A stretch of DNA of 44,478 nt, taken from Nitrospirota bacterium (GTDB lineage Bacteria; Nitrospirota; Nitrospiria; Nitrospirales; Nitrospiraceae). Shown piece after piece: positions 9,660 through 42,257 of the stretch (the first letter of the stretch is position 1; each line of letters opens with the position of its first letter). Where the stretch lies: positions 1 to 44,478 of the forward strand of contig JAUXQT010000027.1 in the NCBI GenBank assembly GCA_030682135.1, written 5' to 3'. Under the pieces are notes generated by a model, which did no database searches, had not been told where the DNA came from, and worked only from the letters and a program-made list of their open reading frames with translations. The position numbers and the translations under genes were made by a program.

Positions 9660-9811
9660 GCAGGATGCTCAAAAAGTCCGTCTTCTTTGTCCGTCGTTCG
9701 TGAAGCGTCGCTCGTATCTCGTTGCAACCTCAGATGCAGGATTTTTGCGAGATGCGCTTCACGAGGGACGCTTCACGGTTTTTGCCCTGGTGGACTTTTT
9801 CAACATCCTGC
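9660..9811. repeat. Palindromic intergenic element, CAGGATGCT family (copy 1)
   Basis: The ends are complementary: GCAGGATGCTCAAAAAGTCC at the left and GGACTTTTTCAACATCCTGC at the right. An inner perfect repeat CGTGAAGCGTC (9699-9709)/GACGCTTCACG (9767-9777) extends the hairpin. It fills the gap between aspS and aroC, and its right end touches the aspS stop codon. Related copies lie at 22838-22960, 24961-25084 and 37901-38030, with a half copy ending at 19199. Confidence 0.85.
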
Positions 9812-15666: not shown

Positions 15667-18648
15667 TTACGACTTCTTCGACGCTACTCCTGTCACTTGT
15701 GCGTTTTCGATTTCAGCCACACTCTCGGCATCTTCCTGGAGCCGTTCGCTCCCCTCGTCGGCCGGCATGAACTGTTCGACCCGGGTATTCCCGCTATCGA
15801 CGGCAAACACGCTGCCTCTGACATCGACCGCGATGCCGTAAGGGAAATTGAACTGCCCTTTGCCATTCCCGAACCCACCCCACTGGGTGATGAAGTTACC
15901 TTCTTTATCGAACTTCTCAATGCGATGGTTTCCCGTGTCCGTGACATACACATCGCCGGCGCCATCGACCGTAATACCCCAGGGAGACCGCAACTGACCG
16001 GCCTCTTGGGCCAGCGGGCTGCTGGCATGGCCCGGTTCAGAGCTGCCGCCCCACTTGGTCAACAGCTGTGGCAACACGTTGGTGCTGGTGTCGAACTTCT
16101 GAATCCGGTGGTTCCCCATGTCGACGACGTACACAAATCCATCTGTCTGATCCACGGCCACGCCGCGCGGGAAGTAGAACTGGCCGTCGCCGTTCCCGAA
16201 GCTGCCCCAGGACATGATGAACTCGCCGTTCATATCGAACTTCTGCACACGGAAGTTGGCGCTGTCGACCACGTAGACATATCCACGCACCCGGTCGACC
16301 GCGATGCCCCAGGGTGAGTTGAATTGGCCTTCGCCGTTTCCGCGCGACCCGAACTTCATGAGATAGCCGCCGAGCTTCCCGTCGAACTTCTGAACGCGAT
16401 GATTGTTCGTATCGACGACCCAGACGTCGCCCTTGCCGTCGCAGGCAATGCCGGTCGGGTTGTGGAAGTTCGAATTGGCCGAACCGAAGTTACCCCAGAG
16501 AATGATGAAATTTCCGGCATTGTCGAATTTCTGAATGCGGTTGTTGCCGTTATCGACCACGAACAACGACCCTTGCTGATCGACACACATGCCATACACC
16601 GGAGCCATAAATTCGCCGCCATGCAACAGCGACGCGCCACGGCCAGTCCGGCCCCATTCAGCCACGCAGAGGTACCCTGACGTGTTAACCAAAATCGTAG
16701 TGCTGGCAGGAGTGGAGACGTTTCCGCCCAAATCCTTAAACCAGACGTAGATCGCTTTCTGCCCGTCTCCCAGCGACAAAATAAACGGAATCGTTGCGCC
16801 GAACTTGGTAGCCGGCGTCACATCCACCCATCCCGGCGTCCCCGCCATAGGGGTCATCGGCGCCTCGGAGATAAAGTAGGCCGCCACTCCGGTATCGACA
16901 TCGTTCGCTGAAATCGTGACGATGACTTCCGGCGTATTCGTCATGAAGGCGCCATGGTTGATCACGGCATAAGGATTTTGCGGCGCCGTGATATCGATGA
17001 GGACCGGCATGGCCGTGACTTCGCTCGACAAGGCACTTTCCGCGCCGTTCTCGAACACGGCGGTCACGGCATAGAAATAGGGGGTATCGTTCGACAGCCC
17101 TGTGTGCGCATAGGGGTTCGTCACGCCTTCTACTTTTGTCGCCGTCTGCGTGGTGAGCTCAGGAATGGTATTGAAGTACAGGTTGTAGGACTGGGCGCCA
17201 GGGACCTCCATCCAGCTCAGGAAGGCTTCCGTATCGCCGGCTTTGACTGCCACACTGTAGGGCGGCGGCGTTTCACTCGGAACCTGACTGATGGCCGCGG
17301 CGTCCTTCCCGCGATTGAGCTCTTCCTCCGTCGGCACATACTTGAGTATGCGGCCATTGCCGCTGTCGACCACATAGACCGCGCCTTCTTTATCGACCGC
17401 GATCCCGTAGGGATAATTGAGCTGCGACTCTGCCCGTCCTCGATTACCCCAGGCGCAGAGGAACGTCCCATTTCCGTCAAACTTCTGAATGCGGTGGTTC
17501 CCGGTGTCGACGACGTAGACATTGCCGAGTGCATCGCAGGCAATGCCCCAGGGGGACTTGAACTGCCCGGGACCTGCGCCCTCGCGGCCCCACTTGGCCA
17601 GAAAACTCCCGCGAGCATCGAACTTCTGAATGCGATTATTGCTTTCATCCGCTACGAAAATGTTGCCGACAAAGTCGACGGCTACGCCGCGTGGGAAAAA
17701 GAACGCGCCATCGAAGCTGCCGTCACGACCCCACTTGAGCAGGGCCTGTCCGTCGGACGTAAACTTCTGAATCCGCGCGTTGCTCGTGTCGGAGACATAG
17801 AGGTTCCCTTCGGCGTCCGTCGCCAAGCCCCAGGGCACGTCGAACCGGCCGAGATCCGCCCCACGCCACGCAAACCCGAACTTGCCCCAGGCCTGCATCA
17901 CATTGCCGTCGAGGTCGAATTTCTGGATGCGGTTGTTGCCGCTGTCTGCGATATACAACACGTCGTTCGGCCCGACTGCCAAACCACGCGGATAGTAGAA
18001 GCTCCCTTCCTGAGAAGAGGGATCGCCGCCCCAACGCGCAAGAAATTTTCCGGTTTTATCGAGTTTCTGAATCGAATGGTTGTCGGTGTCGGCCACGTAG
18101 ATATTGCCGTCTTTATCGAGCGTGATCCCTGTGGGCGAGCTGAACTCCCCGTCATCCACGCCTTCCCGCCCGATACACATGGCCAACAGATAGGGCGAGG
18201 GAATCGCCATGACCTCTTTCGACTCGAGGCTCTCCCCCTTTTGCGTGACGACGGTCACCACATAGTAATAACAAGTCCCGTTGGCCAGATCGTCATGGAC
18301 AAACGGACTCTGAATACCTTCCACACAGGTACCATTCTCTTTCGTCACCCCAATGACGGCTTTGAAGTCATCGTCGCCGGCAATCGGACGCGTGAGGTCG
18401 GAGAACTTGATCATCACGCCCTTGGTCGTCTTGAAATAGAGATTGTAGTACATGGCATCGGGAACGGAGTCCCAGGTAATGGTCACCCGGCCATTCCCCG
18501 GTTTTGCGGCCACGTTCGCCGGAGCGGGAGGGAGCTCTTCTTCTTCGGCGATCGAATCACCGGCACCCCATTCTCCCTGAATTTCTTCGATGGTCAGATG
18601 CGTTCGATCAAACCGAAACATCTCGTCGAATAGCCATGCTTTAATCAT
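15667..18648 (-). CDS. NHL-repeat protein with two six-bladed propellers and Fn3 domains
   Basis: 993 residues. An N-terminal region of about 40 residues has no signal peptide. It is followed by an Fn3-like domain (about 43-150) and NHL repeats 1-6 (each with a core like GNIYVADTDNHSIQKLD). Then come a second Fn3-like domain, an Ig-like stretch of about 110 residues with TAPQNPYAV, NHL repeats 7-12 and an acidic tail. Six repeats make one closed beta-propeller, so two propellers are joined by an Ig/Fn3 linker. NHL propellers bind proteins, glycans or RNA; there is no enzyme motif. With no visible export signal it may be cytoplasmic or leave by a non-Sec route. Confidence 0.9.
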   Translation of the reverse strand: MIKAWLFDEMFRFDRTHLTIEEIQGEWGAGDSIAEEEELPPAPANVAAKPGNGRVTITWDSVPDAMYYNLYFKTTKGVMIKFSDLTRPIAGDDDFKAVIGVTKENGTCVEGIQSPFVHDDLANGTCYYYVVTVVTQKGESLESKEVMAIPSPYLLAMCIGREGVDDGEFSSPTGITLDKDGNIYVADTDNHSIQKLDKTGKFLARWGGDPSSQEGSFYYPRGLAVGPNDVLYIADSGNNRIQKFDLDGNVMQAWGKFGFAWRGADLGRFDVPWGLATDAEGNLYVSDTSNARIQKFTSDGQALLKWGRDGSFDGAFFFPRGVAVDFVGNIFVADESNNRIQKFDARGSFLAKWGREGAGPGQFKSPWGIACDALGNVYVVDTGNHRIQKFDGNGTFLCAWGNRGRAESQLNYPYGIAVDKEGAVYVVDSGNGRILKYVPTEEELNRGKDAAAISQVPSETPPPYSVAVKAGDTEAFLSWMEVPGAQSYNLYFNTIPELTTQTATKVEGVTNPYAHTGLSNDTPYFYAVTAVFENGAESALSSEVTAMPVLIDITAPQNPYAVINHGAFMTNTPEVIVTISANDVDTGVAAYFISEAPMTPMAGTPGWVDVTPATKFGATIPFILSLGDGQKAIYVWFKDLGGNVSTPASTTILVNTSGYLCVAEWGRTGRGASLLHGGEFMAPVYGMCVDQQGSLFVVDNGNNRIQKFDNAGNFIILWGNFGSANSNFHNPTGIACDGKGDVWVVDTNNHRVQKFDGKLGGYLMKFGSRGNGEGQFNSPWGIAVDRVRGYVYVVDSANFRVQKFDMNGEFIMSWGSFGNGDGQFYFPRGVAVDQTDGFVYVVDMGNHRIQKFDTSTNVLPQLLTKWGGSSEPGHASSPLAQEAGQLRSPWGITVDGAGDVYVTDTGNHRIEKFDKEGNFITQWGGFGNGKGQFNFPYGIAVDVRGSVFAVDSGNTRVEQFMPADEGSERLQEDAESVAEIENAQVTGVASKKS

Positions 18649-19199
18649 TGGTGGTGCCTCGTGTGACAGGACCGGGTGAAATCGAAGAACTTCGCCTCTT
18701 TCAACAACTTAGATTGAGAACGGGAAGTCTAACAAAGCGGCTTGAGGGGAGTCAACGGGGGACGGGGATGGAGTCTGATGATCTTCTGTGCTCGCGGAAC
18801 GCGCACGATAAAAAGGATTGGAAGGACACCCACGTTGGTCCTGTGCTCCCGGAACGCGCGCCCTGAGAAGGGCCTCGTTCGACGGCCGCACGTAGACCAA
18901 CATGGGTGCCCTTCCAAGAGAGGGAAAGCAAGCGAGCTTGGAAGGATTATATAGATGAATGACGGTCGTTCGATGCGCGCAGTAAAGGACAGCCTGCCTA
19001 CTCCCTATGAATAGGTTAAAGAATCTGAGGCCCTCGTTGACACGCGCAATTCAAGGAGCGCTCAGGCTCCCGTTTTTGGAAAGATGTGGGAAGGAGGAAG
19101 GAAATGGGAATTCAAGATTCGAACTTCTGATCGCGCTATTCTCGCCTCTCTCGCGCTTCGCGCGCTATCAAGACGCTGGCGAACTTTTCGAGCATCCTG
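18649..19199. repeat. Gene-free 550 bp holding a nested palindromic repeat complex
   Basis: No credible gene. From 18789 to 18982 the halves of a 48-bp core (TGCTCGCGGAACGCGCACGA at 18789 and CGTTCGATGCGCGCAG at 18967) are split by an inserted hairpin. The hairpin arms are 18820-18840 and 18895-18915, 19 of 21 positions paired. Its loop again holds a degraded core (TGCTCCCGGAACGCGC...CTCGTTCGACGG). A related module (CCTCGTTGACACGCGCA) follows near 19033. The region ends with a half copy of the CAGGATGCT element (19181-19199) touching the scpB stop codon. The NHL gene promoter should lie near 18650-18750, but no clear boxes are seen. Confidence 0.75.
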
Positions 19200-22837: not shown

Positions 22838-22960
22838 CAGGATGCTGAAAAAGGCCGTCAGCTTCGTTCTCGCATCGTTCAGACCCTCAATGTACCCTAC
22901 GGGTACACCTCGGATCTTCACTCGCTGCGGCCTTGCTGAACGGCCTTTTTGAGCATCCCG
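22838..22960. repeat. Palindromic intergenic element, CAGGATGCT family (copy 2)
   Basis: The left end CAGGATGCTGAAAAAGGCCG pairs with the right end CGGCCTTTTTGAGCATCCCG. The middle contains GTACCCTACGGGTAC, a perfect small palindrome. It sits between two convergent genes, touching the TAG stop at 22961 and only 3 bases after the S16 peptidase stop, a good place for a bidirectional terminator. Confidence 0.82.
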
Positions 22961-23416
22961 CTACGCCGCCGCTCCCGTGGCGACTTGCATAATTGCGTCA
23001 TACTCCGCTTGGGTCAGTCGATGCATACCCAGCGTCAATCGCCGAGACAGTTCGGCCTGATCGGCAATCTGCAACACGTTCAGCAAGAGCGGTTGACTCA
23101 CGGCGGATGGGCAGGCCAACCGGCGTACGCCGTCGATCCGCACAAAGCCAAATCTGGCCTCCGTTCTCAACTCATCGCTGAGAAACGCGTCCAGCGCAGA
23201 GAAATCCAACACGGGAGAGAGGATCTGAAACTCGGCACAAAGCCCGACCTTCAGCACATACACCAGCCCACGAGACTCTGTATCGAGGTAGGTCTGGAGA
23301 TTCGTCCGGATCAGCCCGGTGCAGAGGCCCCAGAGGCCATGCCCGAGTTGCAGCTCGGCACTTTCCTCCGAGGTGCGCTCTCGCAACGCCCCGGCTACGA
23401 ACAAAAAATGACTCAT
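22961..23416 (-). CDS. Hypothetical protein
   Basis: 151 residues from an ATG at 23416; an upstream TTG at 23422 is also possible. There is no signal peptide or membrane segment. Recognisable only as a mixed alpha/beta protein (GLVYVLKVGLCAEFQIL, RFGFVRIDGVRRLACPS), with no family or motif I can name. The TAG stop directly abuts the repeat element at 22838-22960. It follows the H1-like gene on the same strand after 127 bases. Confidence 0.55.
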   Translation of the reverse strand: MSHFLFVAGALRERTSEESAELQLGHGLWGLCTGLIRTNLQTYLDTESRGLVYVLKVGLCAEFQILSPVLDFSALDAFLSDELRTEARFGFVRIDGVRRLACPSAVSQPLLLNVLQIADQAELSRRLTLGMHRLTQAEYDAIMQVATGAAA

Positions 23417-24960: not shown

Positions 24961-25084
24961 CAGGATGCTCAAAAAGGCCGTCCAGCAAGGCCGCAGCGAG
25001 CGAAGAGGCGAGGCGTCCCCTTGTGGTACGTTGAGCCTTTTCGTGAAGCGAGAACGCCGCTGGCGGTCTTTTTCAGCATCCTGC
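24961..25084. repeat. Palindromic intergenic element, CAGGATGCT family (copy 3)
   Basis: The left end CAGGATGCTCAAAAAGGCCG and right end GGTCTTTTTCAGCATCCTGC are complementary. The element ends 5 bases before the ATG at 25090, so it replaces the usual ribosome-binding region of the next gene. Confidence 0.82.
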
Positions 25085-27837: not shown

Positions 27838-28165
27838 TTGCTCGCAGATCCCCCACGACAAAAAGGATTGGAAGGACACCCATGTTGGCCCTGTGCTCCC
27901 GGAACAGAGGAGGGGATGGAGCCTGATGATCTTCTGTGCTCGCGCAACGTACCGGGGCTTGTCTGTCTGGTTGGCTGGTCTTTCTGGTCTGTCTGGTTCT
28001 TCTGGATGAATTTCCAGTCCGACCAACCAGACAAACCAGATAGACGAGATAGACCAGATGAACCTTCCCTCGTTCGATGCGCGCAGTCGAGGGCAACCTT
28101 GGCGACTCCCCTAGAAAAATGACGCGAGTGGAAATCCCTCGCTGGGCACGCGCATTCGAGGATCG
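27838..28165. repeat. Nested repeat complex (second copy of the 18.8 kb type)
   Basis: Shares modules with 18775-19060: GGATTGGAAGGACACCCATG, TGTGCTCCCGGAAC, GATGATCTTCTGTGCTCGCG, CGTTCGATGCGCGCAG (28071-28086) and CACGCGCATTC, but in a different order. Between the core halves at 27937 and 28071 sits a TCTGGT word-repeat hairpin (GTCTGGTTGG at 27965-27974, CCAACCAGAC at 28023-28032). No gene is credible in 27770-28276; the rest up to 28276 shows nothing I can name. Confidence 0.72.
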
Positions 28166-31839: not shown

Positions 31840-31911
31840 GTTCTTTTACCTCTCCACTCCCCTCGGAGGGGGATGCGTGAACTAGCGTCTGATTCTCACC
31901 ACTTCTCTAAA

Positions 31912-32002
31912 GGAGCGGCCAGATTGCCCTCGACTGCGCGCATCGGACGAGCACAGTTCCATCGTGCGCGTTCTGCGAGCAAAGAGGGTATCTGGCCGCT
32001 CC
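31912..32002. repeat. Hairpin element with 48-bp conserved core (copy 1), after recG
   Basis: Perfect 13-bp terminal inverted repeats GGAGCGGCCAGAT (31912-31924) and ATCTGGCCGCTCC (31990-32002) enclose the core 31934-31981 (CTGCGCGCATCGGACGAGCA ... GTGCGCGTTCTGCGAGCA). The core is 43/48 identical to 41632-41679. The outer stem lies 5 bases after the recG stop and could end its transcript. Confidence 0.82.
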
Positions 32003-32006
32003 GCCC

Positions 32007-34559
32007 TTAACTGACCGATCCCAAATCCAACTTCGTTTCCCATCGCCGCAACATGGTCTCTCGCAAAGCACGATGCGTCGCAGCCTTGAGCTGAGGGTCT
32101 TGCTTCAGCAGCGCAAAAGCTTCCTGCCGCGCCTGCTGGAGCAGCTCGACATCCCGCACCAGGTTCGCGGCGCGAAACTCCGGCATGCCCCATTGCCTGA
32201 GTCCAAAAAACTCGCCTGGCCCGCGAATGCGGAGATCTTCCTCGGCAATCACAAACCCGTCGGTCGATCGCACGAGCGCGTCCAACCGCTCCTTGGCCAC
32301 TGACGGCGGCTCACCGGCTTCTTTGGGCTTCTTCGATCGAAACAACACCCCGCCCGAGGCCATCAACAGACAATAGGACTGATGCGCGCTTCGCCCGACC
32401 CGGCCTCGCAATTGGTGCAACTGCGCCAGCCCGAACCGCTCGGCATGTTCGATCATCATGACCGTGGCATTGGGCACATCGACTCCGACCTCCACCACCG
32501 TCGTCGCAACCAGGACCTGAATCTCCCCCTTCTTATATGAGGCCATGACCTGTTCTTTCTCATCCGACTTCATCCTGCCATGCAACAGCCCGACGCGAAA
32601 CTCGGACAGCTCGTCAGCTTGCAGCTGCTCAGCCCCCTGCATGGCTGCCTGGAGATCGGTCTTCTCCGATTCTTCGACGAGCGGGTAAACGATATAGGCC
32701 TGACGGCCGCTTCGTAATTCGTCGCGCAGAATCTGATAGGCCCGCCCCTTCTGGCTGTCGCTCAAGAGAAACGTCCGCACCGGCTTTCGCCCCGGCGGCA
32801 TCTGGTCGATCACCGAGACATCGAGATCCCCATAGACCGTCATGGCCAGCGTACGTGGAATCGGCGTCGCGGTCAGCACCAGCACATCGGGTTTATAACC
32901 CTTTTCCATGAGCGTCTTTCGTTGAAGCACGCCGAATCGATGTTGCTCATCCACGACGACCAATCCCAGCTTTGCGAAAGTGACGCCTTGCTGAATGACC
33001 GCATGGGTCCCGATCACGACCTGCGCGGCCCCGGAGGCCACCTGCTCACGCACGGCTTTACGCACGGCGGCGCGGCCCCCGCCACTCACCAGCACCACGG
33101 ACAATCCGAGCGGTTCCAGGAATCCCTTCATCGTCCGATAATGTTGCTCGGCGAGAATTTCCGTCGGGGCCATCAAGGCTGCCTGATAGCCAGACCCGCA
33201 GGCCAGCACCATCGCCTGCACCGCCACGATGGTTTTACCGGACCCGACATCCCCCTGCACCAGGCGGTTCATCGGTTTGCTCGAGGTCATGTCCGACAGA
33301 ATCTCCCGATTCACCCGCTCTTGCGCTGCGGTTAATCGAAAAGGCAGCGCCCGATCCAGCTTCCCGAGGAGCGGTGTCTTCGGATTAAATAAAACCTGCT
33401 TCACCTCCTCCTTCATAACTCGTTGCCGCGAGGCCAAGGCGAGTTGGAGCAGGAACAGTTCTTCGAACGCTAAGCGCCGATGAGCCGGCGTGAGACCTCG
33501 ATCGAGCTGTCCTCCATCTGTCCCAGGTTGAGGGAAATGCACATCCTGGATGGCTTGCTGAATGGGTGGCAATCGATAGCGGGCACGCAGCGAAACCGGC
33601 AGGACCTCTTGCGCCTCGGCAGCATGGGCGTCCAGCAGGCTTTTCATGAGTACCCGCATCTGCCGGGAAGTCCAGCCTTTGGTTTCGTGGTATATGGGAA
33701 CGATCCGCCCCACATGCAGCGGTGCTTCGGATTCCGCGCCCACCACTTCGTATTGCGAGACCTCCATCTTCATCGCCACAAACCCCTGCGCGCCGGCTAT
33801 CACCCGCCCGGTCAGCATGACGCTCGTCCCAACGGTGAAGACCGGTTCGAGGAACGGCTGATTGAAGAACACCGCCTGGAGCCGCCCGGTAGCATCCTCC
33901 ACCACAATGTCGAGGATGGAGAGGCGGCGGCTACGGGCCTTCTTGGCCTCGCTTCGGATGATCGTGCCGCAGATCGAGGCCTCCGCCCCAGGCACCAGTT
34001 GTCCGATCGGGGTCATGACCGAGCGATCTTCATACCGCCACGGTAGAGTCCAGAAGGCATCCTCAATCGTGTCGATCCTGAATCGTTGGAGCAATGCGGT
34101 GCGCTTCGGACCGACGCCCTTCACGAAACGAATAGGCTGTTCCCACCATGGTCGCGAGGTCATTGCATTCACAACCGGCTTTGGCATCGCGAGAGGCTCC
34201 GGTTCCTGCCAGGCCTTGGCTGGATTGCTGACTGCCTCGCGCAAGCCCCCAAGAATGGCCATGGCTTCCTGCAGCCGGCGTTGCTGCTCCTCGGCCGAAA
34301 ACAGCTGCTGATCTTCACGAAATAGCTCGCGTAGCTGGAGCAAGCCCGCTTCAATCGCCCGTGGATAGACGCGATCGGACAAGGCTTGCATGACCTGTGA
34401 GGAAACAAAGTGACTCAGATTCTTGACGGTAGGAAGATGTGCAAAGGCATCGCGAGTCGCAAATTCGATCGGACGCGCGACTCGGTCCAGCCATTGCTGA
34501 AACTGTTCGGGGAGTGTGGGCTCGGAAGAGCGCCGTATCACAATGGCGGATCGTAACAC
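32007..34559 (-). CDS. recG: ATP-dependent DNA helicase RecG
   Basis: 850-residue replication-fork reversal helicase, longer than E. coli RecG (693) owing to a ~140-residue N-terminal helical extension. A wedge/OB domain follows (GPKRTALLQRFRIDTIEDAF ... PWRYEDRS). Helicase motifs: Walker A QGDVGSGKT, DEQH box VVDEQHRFG, motif III TATPIPRT, and motif VI QLRGRVGRSAHQSYC. The extension is common in recG outside gammaproteobacteria. Start is GTG at 34559 with GAAGAGG just upstream. Confidence 0.97.
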   Translation of the reverse strand: MLRSAIVIRRSSEPTLPEQFQQWLDRVARPIEFATRDAFAHLPTVKNLSHFVSSQVMQALSDRVYPRAIEAGLLQLRELFREDQQLFSAEEQQRRLQEAMAILGGLREAVSNPAKAWQEPEPLAMPKPVVNAMTSRPWWEQPIRFVKGVGPKRTALLQRFRIDTIEDAFWTLPWRYEDRSVMTPIGQLVPGAEASICGTIIRSEAKKARSRRLSILDIVVEDATGRLQAVFFNQPFLEPVFTVGTSVMLTGRVIAGAQGFVAMKMEVSQYEVVGAESEAPLHVGRIVPIYHETKGWTSRQMRVLMKSLLDAHAAEAQEVLPVSLRARYRLPPIQQAIQDVHFPQPGTDGGQLDRGLTPAHRRLAFEELFLLQLALASRQRVMKEEVKQVLFNPKTPLLGKLDRALPFRLTAAQERVNREILSDMTSSKPMNRLVQGDVGSGKTIVAVQAMVLACGSGYQAALMAPTEILAEQHYRTMKGFLEPLGLSVVLVSGGGRAAVRKAVREQVASGAAQVVIGTHAVIQQGVTFAKLGLVVVDEQHRFGVLQRKTLMEKGYKPDVLVLTATPIPRTLAMTVYGDLDVSVIDQMPPGRKPVRTFLLSDSQKGRAYQILRDELRSGRQAYIVYPLVEESEKTDLQAAMQGAEQLQADELSEFRVGLLHGRMKSDEKEQVMASYKKGEIQVLVATTVVEVGVDVPNATVMMIEHAERFGLAQLHQLRGRVGRSAHQSYCLLMASGGVLFRSKKPKEAGEPPSVAKERLDALVRSTDGFVIAEEDLRIRGPGEFFGLRQWGMPEFRAANLVRDVELLQQARQEAFALLKQDPQLKAATHRALRETMLRRWETKLDLGSVS

Positions 34560-37815: not shown

Positions 37816-37900
37816 CACCGTCACCCCTTGCGATCACCCTCACCAATTTCAGCACGCAGCACTTTCATCGCCTACACGTCTGGGACAACAGAACCACCTC

Positions 37901-38030
37901 GCAGGATGCTCAAAAAGTCCGTCCAGCAAGGCCACAGGCGAGTCGAAACCGGAGGCGTACCCTCGTTGGGTACGTTGAGGATTTCGATGAGCCGAAGAAC
38001 GAAGCTGGCCGGCTTTTTCAGCATCCTGCG
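37901..38030. repeat. Palindromic intergenic element, CAGGATGCT family (copy 4)
   Basis: GCAGGATGCTCAAAAAGTCC at the left pairs with CCGGCTTTTTCAGCATCCTG at the right. The inner palindrome GTACCCTCGTTGGGTAC matches the centre of copy 2. It lies between two divergent genes, starting 86 bases upstream of the DCC gene and ending 39 bases before the next. Confidence 0.82.
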
Positions 38031-41561: not shown

Positions 41562-41619
41562 CGTCTTTTCCCTCTTCCTCTCCCTCTTGGAAGTCGGCAT
41601 TGACTCCGCATCGCGACTG

Positions 41620-41690
41620 GGGAATCCTAGTCTGCGCGCGTCGGACGAGCACCGTTTTATCGTGCGCGTTCCGCGAGCAGCGGGATTCCT
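41620..41690. repeat. Hairpin element with 48-bp conserved core (copy 2)
   Basis: The short outer repeat GGAATCC (41621-41627)/GGATTCC (41683-41689) encloses the core 41632-41679, which is 43/48 identical to the core after recG. The outer stem is unrelated to that of copy 1. It lies between the TlpA-like gene (stop 16 bases away) and the small hypothetical gene. Confidence 0.8.
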
Positions 41691-41705
41691 CAACCACGAT
41701 GCGTC

Positions 41706-42239
41706 TTACATCTTATTGCTTCCGCCGGCCAACAGCTTCTCGACTTCCGCCACAATCACCGCATCTCCGGCCAGATCCATATTGCCGACTCGCTGCCACC
41801 GGATCACGCCTTGCTGATCGATTACATACACGTTGGGAATAAACTTCCCACCGCCGTACAATTTATCCGTCACCTTGCTCGGATCGAGCAGGTAGGGATA
41901 GGTGACTTTCACTGGAAAGGCGGACAGAAACTCGCCGACACTCTTCTTGGAGTCGCCCGACGAATTGACCCCCAGCACCACAACCTCTTTGCCTTTCATG
42001 ACCTCTGACACTTTCTGAAGTGTCGTGCCCTGCATCATGCAGGGATCGCAGATATGAAACAGCCCAAGGACCACCACCTTCCCCTTATAGCTATCCAGCC
42101 CCACGGTCTCGCCCGTAATGGCGGTCAAGGTAAACGACGGCGCCTTTTCGCCGAGCTTGAACGATCCTGCGGCAAGGACCAGATGGGCCGCAAGGATCGG
42201 AGACAAGAGCGCGCCCAATATCCACAATGTTCGTTTCAT
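41706..42239 (-). CDS. Exported thioredoxin-fold redoxin (TlpA/AhpC-TSA type)
   Basis: 177 residues with a signal peptide (1 to about 24). The redox motif is CDPC (Cys64-Cys67) in GLFHICDPCMMQ, in the TlpA position after KGKVVVLGLF. FIPNVYVIDQQGVIRW supplies the cis-Pro strand. Likely a periplasmic thiol reductase or disulfide exchanger, perhaps for cytochrome c or copper-site maturation. Start at 42239 with GGAGG 5-6 bases upstream. Confidence 0.88.
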   Translation of the reverse strand: MKRTLWILGALLSPILAAHLVLAAGSFKLGEKAPSFTLTAITGETVGLDSYKGKVVVLGLFHICDPCMMQGTTLQKVSEVMKGKEVVVLGVNSSGDSKKSVGEFLSAFPVKVTYPYLLDPSKVTDKLYGGGKFIPNVYVIDQQGVIRWQRVGNMDLAGDAVIVAEVEKLLAGGSNKM

Positions 42240-42257
42240 GAGAGCCTCCATTTCGAG

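Follow-up and report, generated by a model that had tools for sequence, protein, structure and literature searches.

Two short repeats in a 44,478 nt stretch of a Nitrospiraceae genome (hereafter the window) carry nearly the same core between entirely different stems, each of which pairs with itself. This raises the question of whether such a core inserts into ready-made hairpins or whether core and stem are parts of a single element.

Two hairpins in the window and their family

The two cores described in an earlier note on this DNA were recovered as reported (31934-31981 and 41632-41679), in the same orientation and with 43/48 positions identical. A search of the window with the two-core consensus and at most three mismatches returned exactly these two sites and no match in 100 shuffles, and BLAST within the window aligned 31928-31981 with 41626-41679 at 87%. 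The two stems were also as described in being mutually unrelated and each self-complementary, but that of copy 2 is longer than the GGAATCC assigned to it and reaches CGCATCG...CGATGCG. Hairpin folding gave z-scores of -8.1 for copy 1 and -4.6 for copy 2, and none of the shuffles was equally stable. Judged from their sequences, both repeats are members of one family of ~100-nt hairpins (named E here) with a fixed 48-letter core and a stem that varies freely but pairs. The window also holds two further, composite copies (Table 1). Gene calls in the surroundings were made by a simple codon-usage script and are not curated annotation; recG and the AhpC/TSA-family gene were confirmed by protein family, and the nearest named relatives of this recG are from Nitrospira.

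Table 1. Positions of E copies and adjoining genes in the window
Feature	Position	Strand	Remarks
E copy 1, complete hairpin	31908..32007	+	Model match 97.9 bits; lies right after the stop codon of recG, antisense to it
Copy 1, conserved core	31934..31981	+	Two mutually pairing TGCGCG...CGAGCA repeats, with a TC bulge and two G.A mismatches
Copy 1, left arm (variable outer stem)	31912..31933	+	GGAGCGGCCAGATTGCCCTCGA; subfamily common to at least 10 other copies
Copy 1, right arm (outer stem)	31982..32002	+	
recG (helicase)	32007..34559	-	Stop codon at 32007-32009 adjoins copy 1
E copy 2, complete hairpin	41605..41706	+	69.3 bits; directly behind the AhpC/TSA-family gene, antisense
Copy 2, conserved core	41632..41679	+	
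AhpC/TSA-family (redoxin) gene	41706..42251	-	Stop codon abuts copy 2
Complete nested E copy	18818..18917	-	71-73 bits; between two half-elements
Composite	18764..19005	-	Half-elements 18764-18811 and ~18966-19005 flank the nested copy; leader GATTATATAGATGAA.../CCAAGCTCGC between
Decayed composite	27839..28112	-	Contains several half-elements; loop carries an unrelated hairpin

With copy 1 as query, BLAST found ~40 further places in its own genome (3.75 Mb, 113 contigs). Several of these matches spanned the full 91-bp hairpin at 81-89% identity, and the stem is thus shared with other copies. For copy 2, the stem is unique within the own genome but is found again in other species, at the corresponding locus. 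A covariance model built from 62 copies gave 119 matches in the own genome, where we count at least 110 copies. The model matched in 25/25 genus genomes examined and E was present in 58 of the 62 Nitrospiraceae genomes scanned; it was absent from all 183 Nitrospirota genomes scanned outside this family, and an earlier scan gave a few weaker matches in two genomes of a neighbouring family. Rfam returned no match for the window or the E-bearing loci, and the open-access literature yielded no description of a Nitrospira hairpin repeat like E. Carriage by phages or viruses was dropped as a candidate, with no exact match of the core in IMG/VR.

From the outside inwards, E consists of a variable outer stem of ~22 pairs, the core and a short variable tip. 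In the core, the sequence TGCGCG-N7/5-CGAGCA occurs twice in direct orientation, and the two copies pair. The folded core presents two identical half-sites (TGC[G]CG opposite CG[A]GCA), each interrupted by one G.A mismatch; they enclose a short spacer, one side of which has an additional TC. The mismatched and extra bases belong to the few invariant positions (G31.A71, G42-A43, T36, G59 and GAGCA). Invariance was judged on the 62-copy alignment; counts of 138/138 at the mismatch positions were forced by the search pattern and hence were not used. In the same 62 copies, 83% of cells were paired (at most 52% when the partners were slid) and 288 cells had changed on both sides, versus 108 in shuffles. 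Arms scored at least 10 with their own partner in 83% of cases and with swapped partners in 5%. Both flanks are C/T-rich and nearly G-free on the E strand, and some copies carry a pyrimidine-rich leader of ~35 nt (ATGCTCCCTCCAAGCTCGCTCG...CTCTTCA). Together with the leader E forms a unit of ~127 bp, which fits the usual spacing of 114-136 between neighbouring copies; all 29 neighbouring pairs had the same orientation, head to tail.

Core and stem across copies and species

As one of two possibilities, the earlier note proposed that the core lands alone in ready-made terminators. The decoupling of core and stem on which this proposal was built is real: in many genomes the core is identical at 48/48 positions with differing arms, and among pairs of own-genome copies the median arm identity was 0.55 where the cores agreed at 95% or more and 0.52 where they were dissimilar. 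The landing of a core alone was not supported. In 96 of the 99 own-genome copies, the arms resembled those of at least one other copy more than shuffled arms did. Other copies with the same stem, which the note had regarded as the mark of simple dispersal of a whole element, exist for copy 1, the stem of which is found in at least ten other own-genome copies.

The locus of copy 2 allowed stem and core to be followed between species. E adjoined the AhpC/TSA-family gene in 22 of the 29 fetched loci, and the types of stem and core co-segregated: type A (stem and core alike) comprised the own genome plus seven further species, type B seven species and type C two. Within the types, stems varied by paired substitutions (e.g. 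CGCATCG/CGATGCG in the own genome versus CGCATTG/CAATGCG in genome G011). The orthologous sets were 94% and 96% paired, with 9 and 5 double-changed cells versus 4.4 and 1.0 in shuffles. Co-segregation in orthologues explains much of the decoupling of core and stem. One reduced allele with remnants (L343) resembles a deletion between GCAGGGAGA direct repeats. A core-free hairpin, for which the earlier note suggested looking in related genomes, was found at neither locus, and the other loci compared likewise gave none; the copy 1 stem without its core was absent from the recG spacers of ~34 other genomes, and at L022:580-678 arms were present or absent together with the core. We conclude that the stems belong to the element, because the copy 1 stem is shared among copies and the copy 2 stem recurs with its core type and changes by paired substitutions.

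At a further locus (L113), the core was nearly unchanged over six other species and the arms were rewritten. Between the own genome and G017 the core had two changes, the arms had changed in pairs and the flanks were 91-93% identical. By hand count on the alignment, 4 of the 19 stem pairs differed on both sides, whereas independent changes at 8% divergence would give ~0.1 such pairs. Compensated drift is not enough to explain them fully, and a contribution from concerted rewriting (template switching) or from exchange between copies is likely. Taken together, the alignments demonstrate that the core is nearly frozen across species, that the outer stem is constrained only to pair, and that the fold of a single resident copy persists at its locus across genus-level divergence.

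E units also form head-to-tail repeats and occur nested within the loops of hairpins. In G011 a second E occupies the apex of an E (n=32), at L363 an E lies within the loop of a GGGTCCTGTCG hairpin, and in the own genome E units were found within the loops of GCAGGATGCTSAAAAAG hairpins. The outer host hairpin often loses one half after nesting; nested or half-lost hosts of E were seen at L350, L351, L362, L364 and L186 and in both composites of the window. The suggestion that hairpin loops take insertions thus had a real basis, but the guest is a whole E unit with its own arms and not a bare core. No clear target-site duplication, a feature of MITEs, was detected at the E junctions compared, nor did a parent IS emerge. 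Within the loop of the decayed E, the window also contains a hairpin of CTGGTCTGTCTGGTT tandem motifs (27958-28060).

Individual copies turn over. For 37 own-genome loci with flanks found in G011, about one-third had the same E, about one-third had none and the rest had a different or chimeric E; this frequent loss indicates that no single copy is essential. Behind recG, E was present in the own genome and in REEB81/G008 and absent from the closer G017 and G011. A gain of E in the own genome at L113 was considered and rejected, since the orthologues from six further species show that it was G011 that had lost E. In view of the L113 and recG cases, we did not infer the polarity of single events from one comparison.

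Position behind stop codons and strand of the fold

The right end of E lay within 20 nt of the stop codon of an opposite-strand gene in 46 own-genome and 21 G011 copies. The corresponding count for the left end was one copy in both genomes combined, versus 67 for the right end. Read in the sense of the gene, the stop codon is followed by the complement of E. Isolated arm mismatches on the E strand were G.T in 88 cases and A.C in 16. A first test with loose pairing had given a weak difference (GT 142 vs AC 105), and limiting it to isolated mismatches revealed the clear bias. Since these mismatches are G.T and not A.C, it is on the E strand that the fold is kept; RNA of this strand exceeds its complement in stability by 3.4 kcal/mol on average. 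The mismatch pattern thus shows that only one strand keeps its fold, namely the E strand, antisense to the adjacent upstream gene.

A strand-specific mutation bias is a conceivable source of the GT:AC bias. The usual strand bias is C to T on the coding or leading strand and predicts the opposite sign. A replication-strand bias of E was rejected: on a 1.04-Mb contig of G011 (C8), E follows gene orientation and has no further strand bias. On this contig E is concentrated in the middle and sparse in the two high-skew ends, despite similar gene density.

Known systems, alternative explanations and proposed role

E agrees with REP repeats in its copy number, its position and its stem irregularities (PMC2817692, PMC8266576), and with attC sites in the antisense fold, the boxes and the extra bases (PMC2727003). 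As tested here, E appears to work somewhat like both and to be a member of neither. It is a high-copy extragenic imperfect palindrome in the REP/BIME sense and recalls REP, BIME and REPIN elements by its >100 copies per genome, often close behind stop codons, by composite arrays, by the conserved mismatch or bulge in its stem and by a strand specificity like that described for REP (PMC8266576). However, E measures ~100 nt as opposed to 20-40, its stems are sequence-free with the core deep inside, it is kept in place across species, and its arrays are head to tail only, with neighbours that never alternate in orientation (29/29 same). The GTAG/CGTC tag 5' of the palindrome was found in 1/138 and 0/138 copies. 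When we searched for Y1_Tnp in the own genome and 88 family genomes, the own genome held no Y1 transposase, and E was near the Y1 gene at 1/26 loci in other Nitrospiraceae; the link was discarded. That E is a classical REP/REPIN mobilised by a RAYT (TnpA-REP) HUH transposase is thus highly improbable. An attC-like single-strand recombination site of integrons would explain the long imperfect hairpin on the gene-antisense strand behind a stop codon, the two symmetric box pairs with extra bases on one side and the variable but paired stem; at the sequence level E has a strand-biased fold and an extra TC, where attC has a single-stranded bottom-strand fold with extrahelical bases. We consider this account very doubtful, as the E boxes lie in mid-hairpin instead of at the base, differ in sequence and are enclosed in an extra outer stem, no cassette arrays were seen, and RYYYAAC/GTTRRRY boxes occurred at the stem base in 0 and 1 of 138 copies. 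An integron integrase scored above cut-off in 8 of the 86 family genomes searched; the own genome has none, its tyrosine-recombinase match being partial (77 bits), and E was no denser at integrase loci than elsewhere, so that the integron link was also abandoned. Full-length integron integrases occur at G179:C1:2415127 and G019:C10:192882 (L319, L320) and in six other genomes, a minority of Nitrospiraceae. A GC-rich hairpin at 0-20 nt behind stop codons with fixed polarity could suggest an ordinary 3'-UTR hairpin that serves the mRNA of the upstream gene itself as terminator or stabiliser. This reading is nevertheless unlikely: a fold kept on the gene-antisense strand, with wobble pairs at 88:16, speaks against it, E has no T-run on either side, the terminator scan called neither window copy, and a frozen core, mobility and nesting are foreign to such hairpins.

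The remaining alternatives concern the origin of the stems. If the 48-bp core had entered the loops of unrelated hairpins that already existed, terminators for instance, the stems would be old host sequence. This origin would account for identical cores in unrelated perfect stems, for the many other hairpin families that Nitrospira spacers hold at the same spot and for whole E units in hairpin loops. It is very improbable in view of the co-segregation of stem and core types over species at the copy 2 locus, the arms missing where the core is missing (L022:580), the arm similarity among nearly all own-genome copies and the arms that inserted units bring with them. Self-templated repair (quasi-palindrome correction or template switching), in which one arm is copied onto the other and pairing is kept without selection, corresponds to the earlier suggestion that flanks are regenerated by copying one side. 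The double changes at L113, two of them by transversion pairs, agree with it, and so do bursts of change that contrast with near-static orthologues at other loci; but repair of this kind would, in the absence of selection for them, also remove the TC bulge and the G.A mismatches, and it predicts neither the GT:AC bias nor the stop-codon polarity nor the one-sided wobble intermediates, which makes it a rather doubtful account of the whole. Possible, if still on the unlikely side, is a change of stems by hairpin-tip exchange or gene conversion between E copies, together with nesting and subsequent loss of the outer element. One stem subfamily is found with different core types (L040, L015), the same spot can carry a different stem and core (n=45, 81, 83), and half-elements of different types surround a nested E (L351, L364). 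Conversion tracts would, however, have to end symmetrically in both arms, and none was seen in progress.

We consider it rather probable that E is a REP-like, host-selected, strand-specific hairpin with a putative protein-binding core and an interchangeable stem. The folded core would be bound by a protein that is conserved in Nitrospiraceae and probably dimeric, and the stem would merely hold the core in shape while the letters of the stem may drift, be rewritten or be exchanged between copies. A protein that reads the core and uses the stem only as a scaffold would by itself account for one conserved core amid unrelated stems, with no need for the core to land in ready-made terminators. E would act as a single-stranded hairpin site recognised as a folded strand; RNA transcribed towards the 3' end of the gene appears somewhat more likely than single-stranded DNA, and such RNA might, for example, stop or process antisense transcripts. 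Because old resident copies are maintained, E probably serves the host at each locus. Conservation of the core could partly be homogenisation by exchange between copies.

A wider version of this model is speculative, and we would not expect it to hold. It envisages a genus- to family-wide network of single-stranded hairpins, antisense behind genes and read by a putative dimeric Nitrospiraceae protein, either as an RNA-level guard against antisense transcripts or for attC-like recombination without an integron integrase, the stems being rewritten in concert by a dedicated process of palindrome copying or tip exchange. Strand-specific selection on a gene-antisense structure is not predicted by the usual REP and terminator models. 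E offers a testable system, with hundreds of natural variants of one hairpin of known orientation, with orthologues and core types, and at the copy 2 and L113 loci concerted rewriting of a palindrome can be traced between species. E is a candidate feature of gene ends in Nitrospira, the genus of the principal nitrite oxidisers and of the comammox bacteria. For Nitrospira moscoviensis, the RepRanger survey gives 3,788 palindromes, a very large number; the passages of that survey considered here do not describe the E family or its core, orientation or covariation (PMC12306157).

Other repeats were observed as well. A further hairpin family with internal repeats, GCAGGATGCTSAAAAAG...CTTTTTSAGCATCCTGC, is present in the window at 9660-9811, 22838-22961, 24961-25083 and 37900-38030, and a long array of ~141-147-bp repeats (15824-18102) falls in a 993-aa ORF on the minus strand, probably encoding a repeat-domain protein. 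The spacers downstream of recG (L123-L199) differ between Nitrospira species in the mutually unrelated hairpin families that directly follow the stop codon (GTGATGNGTGATG, GCTGACAGGCTGACAG, GGCGAGAGGCTAGAG, GCGGGTCCTGTCG and GGGGGATGCGTGGA types), and look as though any hairpin suffices there. At 31860-31905 in the window and at L128 and L136, a core TCCGCTCTTTCAGCAATGGAG lies inside changing stems (GATGCGTGGA.../...TCCACGCATC); this hairpin represents a second family with conserved core and variable stem, independent of E and following the same pattern.
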